Shown here: positions 18,223 to 27,313 of the stretch, piece after piece
How positions within the stretch are numbered: the stretch's first letter is position 1
Layout of the letters: every line of letters begins with the position of its first letter
Assembly (NCBI GenBank): GCA_017484005.1
Contig: JAFUTY010000043.1
Coordinates: forward strand, 1 to 64,000
From: Selenomonadaceae bacterium
GTDB lineage: Bacteria; Bacillota; Negativicutes; Selenomonadales; Selenomonadaceae
Direction: 5' to 3'
DNA: 64,000 bases
Notes under the pieces: generated by a model
Seen by the model: only the letters and a program-made list of their open reading frames with translations
What the model was told of the DNA's origin: nothing
The model's database searches: none
Program-made: the position numbers and the translations under genes

Positions 18223-19627
18223 ATGGCAAATGAAACTGGCAATTTCTCCGTGTCCAATTCCAATTTGACGCAGATCGGAAATTCCAAAAATACTTCTCGA
18301 TCCGCTTCATCAGTCGGCAACAATGCTACAACATCTTATCGTGACATGCTGTCGTCAATGATGCAGGATCAAAATCGTCAATCGACAAACCAAAATCGAA
18401 CTCGAAATCTTTCATTGGGAGATATCAATTGAGATGGAAAATTTTCATTGACTGATCTTGCTAGATTGGATGCTCATGTCAATGGATATGGTACAAAACT
18501 CACTGGTACAGCGTTGGAAAATGCAGATGTCAATCAAGATGGAGTCGTGGATCAAAAAGATGTTGATGAATTAGAATCGAAATATCTCAGAGGTGAAAGA
18601 ACTCTAACTCGAGTCACCGTGAAAGATTTTGTCTTGGGAGATCTGAATCGAGATGGCAAGGTTGATGTTGTTGACGCCTCAATGATGCAAGATGCGGTTC
18701 ATCGAGGAAATTTCAACAGTCTTACATCTGAATCGAAAGTGAATGCCGATCTCAATCAAGACGGAATTATTGATCAAGCCGATTTAAATTTGTTGAGAAG
18801 AAAGATTGTCGGTTTCAATGATACTCCCGATAAAGTGACTCTGACTGATTTGAATGGCGACGGATCTATCGATGTCAAAGATTTGCGCGAAAAAGTTTTT
18901 CCGAAAAAAACTCTTTCATTGGGAGATTTTGACGACGATGGCAAAATTTCTTGGAAAGATCTGATGAAACTGTATGAGCATGTGGGCGGTGGGCAAAAAC
19001 TTATCGGTGAAATGTTGAAAAAGGCTGATATCGATCAAAATGGTGTTGTGGATTGGGACGATCTGATTGCATTGGAATCGAATCTGGATAAGACTCCAAC
19101 TCAAATTACCGTTCAAGGCAAAATGGAAAAAACGTTCTTATTGGGAGATGTCAATCAAGATGGAAGTTTTGATATCGTTGATATTTCCCAAATGCTAGAT
19201 ATAGTTTATCGAGGAGGTCATACCAATCTTTCACCTGAGGCAATGGTGAATGCTGATCTCAATCAAGATGGAGTCGTGGATCAAACAGATTTAACTCTGA
19301 TGAGAAGAAAGATGGTCGGTTTCAATGATACTCCCGATAAAGTGACTCTGACTGATGTCAATGGCGACGACACCATCGATATCAAAGATGTGTATTGGGC
19401 TAAAAAAAATGAGCACAAATCAAAGAGCAGTCCGTACAGTTCAAGCTTACAGCGATTCTTCACTCACGAGCCAAGTGGGATTCTATGAACGCGTTTATTC
19501 TGGCGATAGTTTCAAGATTTTGGAAGTTAATGGAACACGGAATTCCTTGAAAGTTGAATATCCAGCAGGTAACATCAAAAAAATTCGCTGGGTGAGCATG
19601 GATATACTAGTTCCTTTTTCCAGATAA
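18223..19627 (+). pseudogene. Dockerin-repeat protein interrupted by TGA and by a poly-A frameshift
   Basis: The ATG at 18223 has AAAGGCGG upstream. There is no signal peptide; the N-terminus is Ser/Asn/Thr rich and contains TTSYRDMLSSMM. From about residue 65 there are at least seven dockerin-like calcium loops (GDLNRDGKVDVVDASMM, ADLNQDGVVDQTDLTLM), arranged as two near-identical larger repeats (about 18640-18890 and 19140-19400). The frame is continuous from 18223 to 19488 except for a TGA at 18430-18432 inside the first loop (GDIN-stop-DGKFSLTD), where CGA would be expected. At A8 (19401-19408) the frame shifts. The continuation, to TAA at 19625-19627, encodes an SH3-like tail (YSDSSLTSQVGFYERVYSGD...WVSMDILVP). 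It is either a decayed gene or one read through by recoding. Confidence 0.78.
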
Positions 19628-22829: not shown

Positions 22830-22872
22830 AAAAAACTCCCGAGGATCAAAATAGATCTTCGGGAGTCTTTTT
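22830..22872. terminator. Bidirectional terminator between the 22098 gene and the RiPP exporter
   Basis: AAAAAACTCCCGAGGATC...GATCTTCGGGAGTCTTTTTT hairpin between convergent genes. It is nearly identical to the hairpin at 25960-26003. Confidence 0.9.
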
Positions 22873-22879
22873 TATTCGG

Positions 22880-24349
22880 TTAGAAAAATATAGTTTCATC
22901 CGCAATTTTCAAAATTCGATCGTCGTGAGAAATGATTATCGTGATTCTATTTTCCTTTTTATGAACAATCGCCGCGATTAGATCATCGATTGCTCTAACA
23001 TCTAAATTATTATCCGGCTCATCCATAATCAAGACATCTGCAGATTTTTTCAATGCTGAATCGATCAAAACTTTCCGACGTTCACCTCCAGAAAGTTTGT
23101 CATTTCTAACAAAATCTTTCTGTTCGACAACAGAGATCAAATGTTTCCGAGCGTAAATCATATCGAGTTCAGACAATGATATTCCATTGAAATAAATTTT
23201 TCCATCGATCGGATGAATCATTCCGCAAATTAGATTTAACAGTGTTGATTTTCCAGATCCATTTTTTCCAACGATACAATAAATCTTTCCACGTTTAAAA
23301 TTCATGCTGAAGTCTGTCAAAAATTTTCTATCGCCAAAACTGAAATCCAAATTCCTAACTTCAATACGTTCAATTCGATCCAAAATTTTCGATCCGTTCA
23401 ATTCAATCGGCAAATTTTGGATTTCCATGATTCTGTTATATGCACTTCGAGCATTTTGATAATCTTGCCCAACATTCATAAAATATGAAACGCTCTGCAT
23501 CGCAAAAAGATAATATCCATTTAGTGCGACAAAATTTCCAATGCTCAAATTTCCATCTAAAACATCGATGCCGCCGAGTAAGAATATCAATACCGTGAAA
23601 ATCTTGGTCTCATTGCTTCTTCCATATGCAAACCAAAATCTGATTTTTGCCTCGCTGATGCTCGCATCAAAAAATTTATCAAAAGAATTTCTGAATGACG
23701 TCAAAAATTCTTCATACATCGCGTGTAATTTAATCGAATATACATAGAAAAAATTATCGGAAAAACTCGTGAAGTATCTCGATTCTGTCTCACGAACTTC
23801 CTTTGAAATTTGGAAGAGTCTTTCTCTCAGAACAGCAAATATTCCAGCATGAATCGCTGCGACGATCAAAAAAATTGAGATCCACTTTATCCCAATCGAT
23901 TGTAAGAGATAAATTGCCATGATTAACATAGCTGACTGAATCGAAACATCAATGATGCTTCCGAGGATAAATGCAATTAGATCGTCGGAGTCTGTGCTGA
24001 TTCTTTTTGACAGGTAAATCATATCAGTTTCAATTAGGAATTCACTCTTCAATTTTTGAACACGTCGCATTAAATTTTCAGCAACATTATTCGTCAGCTT
24101 AGCACGTATGATTGTTGATCGTATAACGAAGAACCAATTTGATATCACAGCAAGGATATTTATCAGAATTAACATCACCACAAAAAAATAAAGCCCCTCG
24201 ACATTCCGAGTGACTAGAACTTCATCGATGAATTTTGAACTCAAATACGGCATTGACAAATCTGCTATCGAATTCATCATCGCACAAAAAACTATCAGAG
24301 AAAATTCAAATTTATAACCGTCAAGATATTTCAAAACGAATTTTATCAT
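22880..24349 (-). CDS. ABC exporter (membrane plus ATPase) of the RiPP-like locus
   Basis: A 489-residue half-transporter. There are about five to six N-terminal membrane helices (FEFSLIVFCAMMNSIADLSM, LINILAVISNWFFVI), then an ATPase domain with Walker A GKNGSGKST, signature LSGGERRK, Walker B VLIMDEPD and the switch His in IIISHDD. It has no C39 peptidase domain, so leader removal must be done by another enzyme. The ATPase is short: the Q-loop glutamine (SVVEQKDFV) is only about ten residues before LSGGE, where some 45 are usual. Its ATG lies one base after the radical SAM stop (TGA-A-ATG), so it is tightly coupled. It likely exports the modified peptide. Confidence 0.9.
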   Translation of the reverse strand: MIKFVLKYLDGYKFEFSLIVFCAMMNSIADLSMPYLSSKFIDEVLVTRNVEGLYFFVVMLILINILAVISNWFFVIRSTIIRAKLTNNVAENLMRRVQKLKSEFLIETDMIYLSKRISTDSDDLIAFILGSIIDVSIQSAMLIMAIYLLQSIGIKWISIFLIVAAIHAGIFAVLRERLFQISKEVRETESRYFTSFSDNFFYVYSIKLHAMYEEFLTSFRNSFDKFFDASISEAKIRFWFAYGRSNETKIFTVLIFLLGGIDVLDGNLSIGNFVALNGYYLFAMQSVSYFMNVGQDYQNARSAYNRIMEIQNLPIELNGSKILDRIERIEVRNLDFSFGDRKFLTDFSMNFKRGKIYCIVGKNGSGKSTLLNLICGMIHPIDGKIYFNGISLSELDMIYARKHLISVVEQKDFVRNDKLSGGERRKVLIDSALKKSADVLIMDEPDNNLDVRAIDDLIAAIVHKKENRITIIISHDDRILKIADETIFF

Positions 24350-24350
24350 T

Positions 24351-25619
24351 TCACACCAATTGCAACGTCGCCGAGTTTATCAAGCCATCTATGATACCAT
24401 TACGTTCATATTCGCAAAAATCTCCCGCATTATCGAGACTCCCAGTTTCGCTAAAATGTCGAGCTTGGCAAGCTCCTCCGCAAAGCAATTTTAAATTGCA
24501 GTCTTTGCATTTCTCGATGCAATCGACGGTGTGCATTTTAAATTTCTCCATTTTTTCGGAATTGTAGATTTCATCGAAAGAATTCATTTTTACATTTCCG
24601 ACTTTAAAGAGATCAAAATGCAAAAGCTGACAAGGATAAACATCTCCAGAACTCGAGATACTAATTTCTGCGTCACCGATAGCGCATTTAAGGACAGTTT
24701 GATTAATCTTGTGAGATTGAATCATACCGTTCAAATCCATGAATGGAACAACTCCCGCAGATTTTAGAGCATCAAAATACTCCTGCCCAGATAAGTATAG
24801 ATCGTCATTTTGCTTTGCGCTACCTAGATGAAACAGTGGTTGGAAGATCAAACGATTTCCAAATTTTTTAGACATCGCAAGAATATCGGAAATATTTTTT
24901 CGAGTGACAACCATTGCCAGCGAAATATCAATTCCAAATTTATCCAGAAGTTCAATCGCTCGAATTGTTCGATCAAAACTTCCGCTGCCTCTGAAAAAAT
25001 CATGTTTTTCAGACGAGCTGCCGTCCAAACTTATTTTCACTGAATCAAAGACTCGGACTATTTGTTCGACATTCTTTTCATTGATCAAAGTTCCGTTTGT
25101 CATCAATTTATTTGTAAATCCGATCTTCTTGGAATATTCAGCAACTGGAACTGTCAAATTGGAAATTAATGGCTCGCCGCCCGTGAAAATGATTTCAGCT
25201 TGAGAATTGTAATTTTTAATGCTATCCAAAACTTTTTTGTAATCATTGAATTCCATTTTAAAATTACTTTCTTTTCGTTCAGAAGCAAAACAATAAATGC
25301 AATTCAAATTACAACTCGAAGTCATATTCAAATAGATCGCGCGGAGTTGATATGGTTTATGAATAAAAGGCGCGGCTGGAACAGCAAAAATTCCTTCGCC
25401 GCGCACTTTATTCAAGAATTTCTCTACGCTTTGAACGGGAACATTATTTGAAAACTCATTCAGTGTTTCGATAGTCTTCTCAATGGTTTGACTTTCGATA
25501 TAAATTTTCAAGAGTAACACGCCATTCAAATTAGTAACAATCCATGATGGAATCAGAGGATTCAGCACGAGATACTTCTCATCGCGTTGGTAAACTTTCA
25601 AACAATCCTCGAGTTTCAA
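24351..25619 (-). CDS. Radical SAM-SPASM peptide maturase
   Basis: A 422-residue protein. An N-terminal precursor-recognition-like region (about 1-80) is followed by the radical SAM core with CNLNCIYC (Cys103, Cys107, Cys110) and FTGGEPLISN. The C-terminal SPASM domain has the cysteines PCQLLHF, CIEKCKDCNLKLLCGGACQ and DFCEYE, for two further iron-sulfur clusters. Such enzymes install thioether or carbon-carbon crosslinks in ribosomal peptides. A TTG start at 25619 has GAGGCGGG upstream. It is 21 bases downstream of the Cys/Trp-rich repeat peptide gene, its probable substrate. Confidence 0.93.
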   Translation of the reverse strand: MKLEDCLKVYQRDEKYLVLNPLIPSWIVTNLNGVLLLKIYIESQTIEKTIETLNEFSNNVPVQSVEKFLNKVRGEGIFAVPAAPFIHKPYQLRAIYLNMTSSCNLNCIYCFASERKESNFKMEFNDYKKVLDSIKNYNSQAEIIFTGGEPLISNLTVPVAEYSKKIGFTNKLMTNGTLINEKNVEQIVRVFDSVKISLDGSSSEKHDFFRGSGSFDRTIRAIELLDKFGIDISLAMVVTRKNISDILAMSKKFGNRLIFQPLFHLGSAKQNDDLYLSGQEYFDALKSAGVVPFMDLNGMIQSHKINQTVLKCAIGDAEISISSSGDVYPCQLLHFDLFKVGNVKMNSFDEIYNSEKMEKFKMHTVDCIEKCKDCNLKLLCGGACQARHFSETGSLDNAGDFCEYERNGIIDGLINSATLQLV

Positions 25620-25640
25620 GATGATCCCGCCTCAAAAAAT

Positions 25641-25856
25641 TCAACTTCCGGAGCAATTCCAACTTGATCCACATCTTCCGCCACCACCAGTGCAATTCCA
25701 ACTCGATCCACATCTTCCGCCACCACCAGTGCAATTCCATCCACTGCCGCACACTCCATGAACTTTCGATTGGCTATCGTCCGATTTGGAAAATTCCCCA
25801 AGCGATAAACCTTTCGAAAAATCGATTGCAGAGATCTTAAAATCTTTAAGCGACAT
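25641..25856 (-). CDS. Candidate RiPP precursor with 13-residue core repeats
   Basis: A 71-residue peptide. The ATG at 25856 is preceded by GGAGGTG with ideal spacing. Residues 1-35 look like a leader (MSLKDFKISAIDFSKGLSLG). The remainder contains three CGSxWNC units (Cys36-Cys42, Cys49-Cys55, Cys62-Cys68) joined by TGGGGR. The 13-residue repeat WNCTGGGGRCGSS is an almost exact tandem 39-base repeat in DNA. Every unit has two Cys around Gly-Ser-x-Trp-Asn. The gene lies first in a unit with a radical SAM-SPASM enzyme and an exporter. I do not recognise it as a named RiPP class. Possible products are thioether (Cys to alpha-carbon) or Trp-centred cyclophane crosslinks. Confidence 0.85.
   Translation of the reverse strand: MSLKDFKISAIDFSKGLSLGEFSKSDDSQSKVHGVCGSGWNCTGGGGRCGSSWNCTGGGGRCGSSWNCSGS
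25664..25740. repeat. Tandem 39-base repeat inside the RiPP precursor gene
   Basis: Two copies of a 39-base unit containing CCACATCTTCCGCCACCACC, followed by a partial third copy. The length is a multiple of three, so copy-number change would keep the frame and add or remove one 13-residue core unit. Confidence 0.9.
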
Positions 25857-25959
25857 AATGAACACCTCCAAAATTTAAACACCGAAAAATGAGTTGATAC
25901 ATAATAAAAAAAAAAACGATATCGTCAAGTGATTTTTGCATAAATTTTTTCTAGTGAAT

Positions 25960-26003
25960 AAAAAAACTCCCGAGGATCTTTTTGATCTTCGGGAGTCTTT
26001 TTT
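25960..26003 (-). terminator. Terminator of the HD-GYP gene
   Basis: AAAAAACTCCCGAGGATC...GATCTTCGGGAGTCTTTTTT hairpin, 43 bases past the HD-GYP stop. It insulates the HD-GYP gene from the RiPP precursor promoter. Confidence 0.88.
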
Positions 26004-26045: not shown

Positions 26046-27131
26046 TCAAGGATTATATTCGACAACTTGCAATTCCGGATGTTGATTCAGATCTACAGTC
26101 GATTCATATCCTTCCGGAATTCCTTCTAATTCGATAACCGGCTGTGCGAGGATATCTTTGGCAAAATAGACAATCCGCCCGATTTGTCCAGTGTTCAATA
26201 AAACTGGAGAGCCGAGCAGTGAATCGCGAATTCGAGTCAACAATGGAACGCAGACATTCGGATCAAGTCCTCGATACATTTCCTGCTTGAAAAATTCCAC
26301 TGCCGCGAATGGAGTCTGTTTCACATAACCTTGACGCTCTGAAGTGATGTTGTCATATAAATCTGCCACTGCAACAATTCGAGCATAAAGATGAATCGTG
26401 TTTGCCTTTCGATGATTCGGAAATCCAGTTCCATCCATTCGCTCGTGATGCTGCAATACTGCAAGCTTGACATCGGTTGAAATATCCCGCGACTTCATCA
26501 AAATTCCATAGCCGTCTTGAGGATGCATTTGATATTTTTTCAGATCGTCGCCTTTGAGCATCTCGATTTTCTTTCCGCGCAATCGAGCATCAAATTTTGT
26601 CTTTCCAATATCATGCAAAAACGCTGCTAATACAACTTCACGCATAACTCGAGGCGACATATACATCCATTTCGCGATTAATCCCGCCACAATTGCAACG
26701 CGAATCGAATGAGTATAGATATCGTTGTCTAGATTTTTCATTTCATACAGATAATCGACTGCCGCTGAATTCTTCGACATCGGCACAACTTCATGGCGCA
26801 CGACGAGTTTCGTTCGATCCACTGTATCTTTATCAACTTTGCCCGCGGAAATATCTTTGAAAATCTCCTCGATTTCCTTCTTCGATTCTTCATAATTCTG
26901 CTGAAACGCGATTTTCTTTTTGAACGATGGAAATTCCTCTTGAGCTTTCTCCGCCGCTCGATCTGCCTCGTCGCGAATAAAAACTTGATCGACGTTCAAA
27001 AATCGAAGTCGAATCAGATGCGCATGAGTCAAAACTGTTCCGGCTGACAAAACTACGACGAGATCATCGTTGAAAAGCGATCGAGCCAAGATCATTCCAG
27101 GCTGAAGATGATCTATCGAAACTGCATGCAT
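26046..27131 (-). CDS. HD-GYP domain phosphodiesterase (cyclic di-GMP type)
   Basis: A 361-residue protein starting at ATG 27131 (MHAVSIDHLQPGMILARSLF, typical of the family). The 27164 start is TTG without a clear site. The first 120 residues or so form the usual unannotated N-domain. The HD site is HDIGKTKF at 173-180, with HPQDGYGIL, HHERMDG (228-234) and GTGFP (234-238), the place of the GYP motif. It probably hydrolyses cyclic di-GMP and so opposes the two GGDEF proteins in this window. Confidence 0.9.
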   Translation of the reverse strand: MHAVSIDHLQPGMILARSLFNDDLVVVLSAGTVLTHAHLIRLRFLNVDQVFIRDEADRAAEKAQEEFPSFKKKIAFQQNYEESKKEIEEIFKDISAGKVDKDTVDRTKLVVRHEVVPMSKNSAAVDYLYEMKNLDNDIYTHSIRVAIVAGLIAKWMYMSPRVMREVVLAAFLHDIGKTKFDARLRGKKIEMLKGDDLKKYQMHPQDGYGILMKSRDISTDVKLAVLQHHERMDGTGFPNHRKANTIHLYARIVAVADLYDNITSERQGYVKQTPFAAVEFFKQEMYRGLDPNVCVPLLTRIRDSLLGSPVLLNTGQIGRIVYFAKDILAQPVIELEGIPEGYESTVDLNQHPELQVVEYNP

Positions 27132-27313
27132 GGCGAATCTCACATCCTTGTGAATAAATCTCAACGCGAAAATTCTATACAGACTCGCAAAATCCTTTCA
27201 TCGAATCAGATTGTAATTTCTTGCGAGCGATTTTTTCATGATGTATACTTTCTGAAAGTTTGCGGGAAAGATTTCCGTGAACTGAATTTTATTCGAAGGG
27301 ATGAATTTTTTTG

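Follow-up and report, generated by a model that had tools for sequence, protein, structure and literature searches.

A three-gene radical SAM locus of Selenomonadaceae probably encodes a tandem-repeat variant of the thioether-ringed sactipeptides

What does a compact radical SAM (rSAM) cassette of a Selenomonadaceae bacterium make from a short peptide composed of repeated Cys-containing units, and does the product belong to a described class of RiPP? An initial annotation of the window, by which we mean the entire 64,000-nucleotide stretch of contig JAFUTY010000043.1 analyzed here, recognized a minus-strand RiPP locus of three tightly linked genes and proposed that its product, if new, would constitute a class with multiply repeated rings. 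The locus is almost certainly an rSAM RiPP locus. Judging from the sequences of the cassette and its relatives, its product shares the layout of the two-ring antibiotic streptosactin and is probably a new variant of the sactipeptides, the thioether-ringed class, with modules in tandem, generated by an enzyme of a lineage other than that of the streptosactin synthase.

The cassette consists, on the minus strand, of a 71-residue precursor peptide (P0001; 25641..25856, defined by its open reading frame and by alignment with 10 homologous precursors), a 422-residue radical SAM/SPASM peptide maturase with a TTG start (P0002; 24351..25619, from Pfam and the homologue alignment), and a 489-residue ABC exporter (22880..24349, from Pfam). 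The three genes form one tight transcription unit, with gaps of 21 bases between the precursor and rSAM genes and of 1 base between the rSAM and exporter genes, and thus the compact arrangement originally proposed is borne out by the open reading frames, the Pfam matches and the spacing. The upstream limit assigned to the locus, 25882, has to be moved, as this position marks the start of another open reading frame on the same strand, whereas the precursor begins with an ATG at 25856. Ribosome-binding sites are recognizable by sequence in the cassette DNA, and the best promoter candidate upstream of the precursor is a sigma-70-like element on the minus strand (TTGACG-16-TATTAT, 25901..25928), identified by consensus scan only, with 10 of 12 positions matching. 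In a sequence scan, an intrinsic-terminator-like stem-loop of 13 pairs with a T-tract (22835..22866) closes the cassette, and a second, near-identical terminator-like stem-loop on the opposite flank (25966..25996) separates it from an HD-GYP-like gene (26046-27164). The cassette, present as one copy in the window genome, contains neither a protease gene nor an immunity gene, no Rgg/SHP regulator of the streptosactin kind was noted next to it, and Rfam yielded no matches in the window or in the related locus L020. Elsewhere in the window, on the plus strand, an open reading frame at 18448-19488 carries repeated EF-hand/dockerin-like calcium-binding motifs (DxNxDGxxD).

The precursor begins with MSLKDF and continues to VHGVCGSGWNCTGGGGRCGSSWNCTGGGGRCGSSWNCSGS, a 35-residue leader being followed by a GGGG-linked core of three C-x5-C-x3 units (CGSGWNCTGGGGRCGSSWNCTGGGGRCGSSWNCSGS). 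As first described, the peptide contains three CGSxWNC units joined by two TGGGGR linkers, which is confirmed by the translation and by a 39-bp tandem repeat at 25653-25739 (2.2 copies, 97% match; Tandem Repeats Finder). Unit 1 (CGSGWNCTGGGGR) occupies 25713..25751, unit 2 (CGSSWNCTGGGGR) 25674..25712, and unit 3 (CGSSWNCSGS) 25644..25673, all on the minus strand. No Pfam family matched the precursor, and a heterocycloanthracin match (E 0.02) was rejected as one of composition only.

The rSAM enzyme is present in 11 further genomes of the same genus as the window genome. The carriers, at the thresholds used, are 12 of the 189 genomes of the family and 12 of the 381 of the class, all from one genus, in a set that holds one, often incomplete, genome per species; no relative was found outside the genus at E 1e-70 among these 381 genomes. 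Intact or decayed relatives of the cassette occur in 11 more species, with between one and three units per precursor. Viral contigs contained no relatives, plasmids contained distant rSAM matches only and no precursor, and a scan of named genomes returned, among the matches listed, one decayed Selenomonadaceae copy (L026), the rest being distant rSAM proteins. Across 55 genomes of the genus, matches to the unit pattern were confined to these cassettes, and a reversed control pattern gave 0 matches. The dN/dS ratio of the rSAM gene is approximately 0.08-0.18, and the enzyme and exporter pairs tested overall span approximately 0.08-0.20, reflecting purifying selection. The recurrence of the cassette and of its two-Cys unit within the genus, the low dN/dS ratios, and the specificity of the pattern search together argue that the locus is not a product of chance.

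The neighborhoods of several of the relatives' cassettes differ from one another. Two cassettes (L024:5372-6388, minus strand, and L026:3719-5567) are decayed, their rSAM genes bearing internal deletions and frame breaks, and these copies point to gain and loss of the cassette within the genus. At another locus, from genome G110 (L020:6950-7800, minus strand), the rSAM gene stops at approximately residue 111, just past the CxxxCxxC motif, and adjoins an HNH-type endonuclease open reading frame; within the 14 kb retrieved, the 5' part of the broken gene is absent, and Rfam gave no intron match. L026 belongs to an uncultured red deer Selenomonadaceae and is up to 94% identical over 125 amino acids to the L022 copy, suggesting that the window organism is probably a rumen Selenomonadaceae. 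The best reading of the distribution is a family of sactipeptide-like RiPPs restricted to one genus. The literature searched contained no paper on this family, which may nevertheless already be listed in an rSAM RiPP atlas.

Precursors encoded upstream of intact enzymes share the leader MSLKDF...LG and possess cores of two kinds. GGGG-linked cores contain three units in the window and in L014 (two copies of CGAGGGCSGGGGM followed by CGAGGGCSGG) and two units in L015, L016, L018 and L019, the last of which has a divergent N-terminus. Single-unit cores (CSHNRTCSAYRR, CNSARSCTLGFR, CATSRGCTSYSK, CSHNRTCSAFRK and CSTARSCTSYRK) are found in L021-L023; L022 and L023 each encode two precursors, paired paralogues (L022:7276-7606, L023:7016-7333) with similar leaders and different cores. 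CGSxWNC, which the initial annotation took as the motif, gives way among the relatives to C-x5-C-x3, since none of Trp, Asn and the first Ser is constant (for example CGAGGGCSGG, CGYGLRCAGG and CSHNRTCSAY). The two Cys, spaced i,i+6 in all 19 unit-like pairs of the 11 precursors, are the only residues invariant across all units. Among the 14 GGGG-linked units, the residue following the first Cys is Gly in 13 and Ser in one, and the residue at +3 is Gly in 11 and Ser in three; after the second Cys, +2 is Gly in 14/14 and +3 is Gly in 12, otherwise Ser or Asn. Position i+3 of a Cys is therefore Gly, Ser or, once, Asn at 28/28 Cys positions of the GGGG-linked members, the sole Asn being the last position of L019, and every multi-unit chain terminates exactly at i+3 of its final Cys. 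At the DNA level, units are 80% identical within one precursor versus 58% between precursors, which indicates either tandem duplication of units or their homogenization within a gene. The number of modules evolves as copies of the 39-bp unit are duplicated or lost.

These alignments bear directly on a Trp-centered cyclophane, which the initial annotation had allowed beside a thioether. Each of the three window units has both Trp and Asn, as does L016, but Trp is found in 5/14 GGGG-linked units and is missing from most relatives, whose enzymes are 48-70% identical, including every unit of the nearest relative, L014. The corresponding position is occupied by W, G, Y, T, V, I or L in multi-unit members and by R in five of five single-unit members, and there is no conserved aromatic residue of the kind that membership in the Trp cyclophane RiPPs would require. 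The Trp-free sister CGAGGGCSGGGG leaves the Cys as the only functional side chains in common. Because Trp is not conserved, a cyclophane centered on it is very improbable.

The maturase matched the Pfam families Radical_SAM (E 9.9e-24) and SPASM (E 1.1e-13). It possesses a CxxxCxxC motif at residues 103-110 and seven SPASM Cys (312, 330, 371, 374, 380, 384 and 402), and none of the ten cluster-binding Cys (three rSAM, seven SPASM) varies among 10 homologues. In an AlphaFold model (pLDDT 81), approximately residues 1-75 form an RRE-like domain of three strands followed by three helices (bbb-aaa). Foldseek ranked CteB (5why/5wgg) first, with SkfB (6efn) and TigE (8vpo, fifth) also among the best structural matches, so that Pfam, the modeled fold and the top match all support the earlier assignment of an rSAM-SPASM enzyme with a possible recognition domain. 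Sequence searches agreed with the structural matches, and the solved structures matched include the thioether-forming CteB and SkfB. The nearest curated family was NF045574 (StsB-type sactipeptide maturase), aligned over its full length (E 3.1e-59); the score, 201 bits, falls far short of the family cut-off (625). The PapB and SCIFF models each scored 96 bits, below their cut-offs of 340 and 425, respectively, and TIGR04340 (ACGX) scored far under its own. A Cys-rich precursor beside an rSAM/SPASM enzyme whose nearest family is StsB, though below cut-off, is the arrangement of a sactipeptide locus, and we consider it likely that the chemistry is a Cys-alpha-thioether, whatever its register. 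A ranthipeptide-like, non-alpha thioether, or a different rSAM modification of the repeat (epimerization or cyclopropanation, for example), would accord with the fold matches to CteB and TigE and with the PapB model match, whose E value of 2e-27 corresponds to a score far under the cut-off. The units, however, conserve neither PapB-like Asp/Glu acceptors nor TigE-like Ile/Val, and where i+3 is Gly there is no beta carbon for a crosslink; we regard this class of modification as improbable.

If alpha-thioethers are formed, the spacing of the units suggests which residues they join. Mature streptosactin is NASCGPSHSCGGGR, with a mass change of -4.03 Da (PMC12445099), and its two unnested rings, precursor Cys25-Ser28 and Cys31-Gly34, are formed in the C to N direction (PMC8172795). 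All three window units have the streptosactin core layout of Cys at i,i+6 with Ser or Gly at i+3, as does every unit of the GGGG-linked members apart from the terminal Asn of L019; in single-unit relatives the residue three positions past the second Cys is mostly a bulky one (Tyr, Phe). In a permutation test that allows for composition, letter identity to the streptosactin core reached p 0.0025 in the best two units and 0.007-0.2 in the others (most at 0.02-0.1 or weaker), which is modest evidence, so that the weight of the comparison falls on the spacing, the class of acceptor and the point at which the chain ends. By analogy with streptosactin, the predicted rings are C36-G39 and C42-G45 in unit 1, C49-S52 and C55-G58 in unit 2, and C62-S65 and C68-S71 in unit 3, where S71 is the C-terminal residue. 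A sactipeptide of the same donor Cys could instead adopt another register, for example with Cys joined to its immediate neighbor, to position i+2 or to the GGGG linker, or with hairpin pairs within a unit. The sactipeptide class does admit other small rings, since those of suisactin enclose a single residue and enteropeptin joins Cys to its neighbor; Gly is plentiful around each Cys, and Cys are clustered in the StsB-like, Paenibacillaceae-type relatives. Against such registers stand the spacing, identical to that of streptosactin, and the chain end: since multi-unit chains stop at i+3 of the last Cys, that Cys cannot use a downstream GGGG linker in any multi-unit member. We judge a different register to be unlikely.

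Membership in the streptosactin (GGG) family was assessed against genuine GggA-GggB-GggC loci recovered from Streptococcus genomes, in which GggA reads MDNLKIIDLEELL...CGPSHSCGGGR/G and true GggB scores 790 bits against NF050038. That model is absent from the 25 best NCBIfam matches of the window enzyme. BLAST aligned the window enzyme with GggB at 31-33% identity over 142-162 amino acids, covering the rSAM core only, and in a 62-sequence tree the window enzyme family forms its own clade (100/100) apart from GggB. The partial alignment and the separate clade rule out the window enzyme as a GggB orthologue. The motif layout, which the initial annotation matched to no sactipeptide, SCIFF, streptide or Xye-type triceptide pattern, does fit streptosactin, a system left off its list, although the window enzyme is no orthologue of the streptosactin synthase. 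As the enzyme is not GggB and lies elsewhere in the tree, convergence or coincidence may account for the common register. We also considered NCBIfam StsB as the enzyme of S. thermophilus streptosactin and rejected it, none of the searched Streptococcus genomes matching at 1e-50, while many Streptococcus genomes yielded GggC in a search with the exporter model.

The exporter matched ABC_membrane and ABC_tran in Pfam and no C39 peptidase model, in agreement with the earlier description. Its Walker A, signature, Walker B and H-loop His are intact, but in 10 of 11 aligned exporter homologues 42 residues are missing from the stretch that runs from the Q-loop (VVEQKDF) to the signature (LSGGE), L019 alone retaining the full helical region. 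Walker A and the signature are 58 residues apart in the window exporter versus 92 in GggC, and an AlphaFold model of moderate confidence (69.5) contains only a short turn in the gap region. From alignment and model, this exporter family looks to have lost most of the ABC-alpha helical subdomain.

The explanation that we favor, at somewhat better than even odds for the full statement, is an exported tandem array of streptosactin-like two-ring modules. The N-terminal domain of the maturase would bind the conserved leader MSLKDF...LG, and the enzyme would abstract the alpha hydrogen from the Gly or Ser three positions past each Cys, allowing the Cys sulfur to add to that alpha carbon and close a four-residue Cys-S-C-alpha ring. 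Six unnested rings would thus be distributed over three repeats separated by flexible GGGG linkers; a housekeeping protease from outside the cassette may trim the leader before the first Cys, and the ABC exporter would remove the product from the cell. Gene content, conservation, the architecture of the units, the class of the enzyme and tandem evolution are shown by the data, and leader recognition, the chemistry and register of the rings, the cleavage site, export and activity are inferred from them. Alternatively, the array may be cut into separate two-ring 10-13-mers instead of one six-ring chain. The unit is about as long as streptosactin, a 14-mer ending in Arg after CGGG, and units within one chain are near identical, but the residue preceding each next Cys is Arg, Met or Gln depending on the species, so no cleavage site is conserved, and no protease accompanies the cassette. 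Such cutting, which we hold to be possible though doubtful, concerns processing and is compatible with the tandem-module explanation. By analogy with streptosactin, the product of the array probably acts in the same way, from a locus outside the GggB family, and its likely role would be that of a narrow-spectrum growth inhibitor of close relatives.

Reviews describe sactipeptides as single chains that generally contain one to four thioethers. The proposed new class of multiply repeated rings retains its repeated modules, and loses its novelty of layout to streptosactin, an unnested sactipeptide already described. A more far-reaching proposal, which we put forward only tentatively, is that one separately evolved enzyme iteratively builds two, four or six four-residue rings like beads on a string in diderm rumen Bacillota, with an exporter ATPase that has no helical subdomain and a register convergent with streptosactin. 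The natural series of one, two and three modules, each with a closely related enzyme, would allow a direct test of how such a maturase keeps count of its modules and advances along the substrate (the rings of streptosactin are made in order, C to N), and would supply a scaffold of rigid rings that can be extended. With this family, a core resembling that of streptosactin is placed in Selenomonadaceae. In a rumen survey, where the clusters were mostly higher in less feed-efficient steers, all differentially expressed Selenomonas clusters were of the sactipeptide type (n=7; PMC8241843).

Among known systems, the StsB-type maturases (NF045574) are the closest curated enzyme family, with an alignment that includes the N-terminal domain; we know of no product structure for them. 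The StsB-like homologues of Bacilli differ in that their upstream peptides have clustered Cys (e.g., DSCQCGAKNGAGA and SCGCGCAFSVGGGYGSSC). Those at L116 and L123-L129, at least one from Saccharibacillus, have as neighbors short peptides whose Cys are clustered and whose tails are rich in Gly, and apparently represent a separate, undescribed sactipeptide-like group. CteB and PapB, maturases of SCIFF peptides and ranthipeptides, share the overall fold of N-terminal recognition domain, rSAM and SPASM, and differ in the Cys spacing and acceptor residues of their substrates. TigE, GrrM/OscB and the ACGX system resemble the window enzyme in general SPASM similarity and in substrates with shown or supposed repeated motifs, whereas the repeat motifs and, where known, the chemistry are different. 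Streptosactin of Streptococcus thermophilus shares the gene order precursor-rSAM/SPASM-ABC exporter and the Gly-rich register C-G-x-[S/G]-x-x-C-x-G-[G/S]. It differs in having a single unit where the window has tandem units, in a GggA leader (MDNLKIIDLEELL) unlike MSLKDF...LG, in a GggB of another rSAM lineage with a short N-terminal part, and in a GggC with a normal helical subdomain, of which the window exporter lacks approximately 42 residues.
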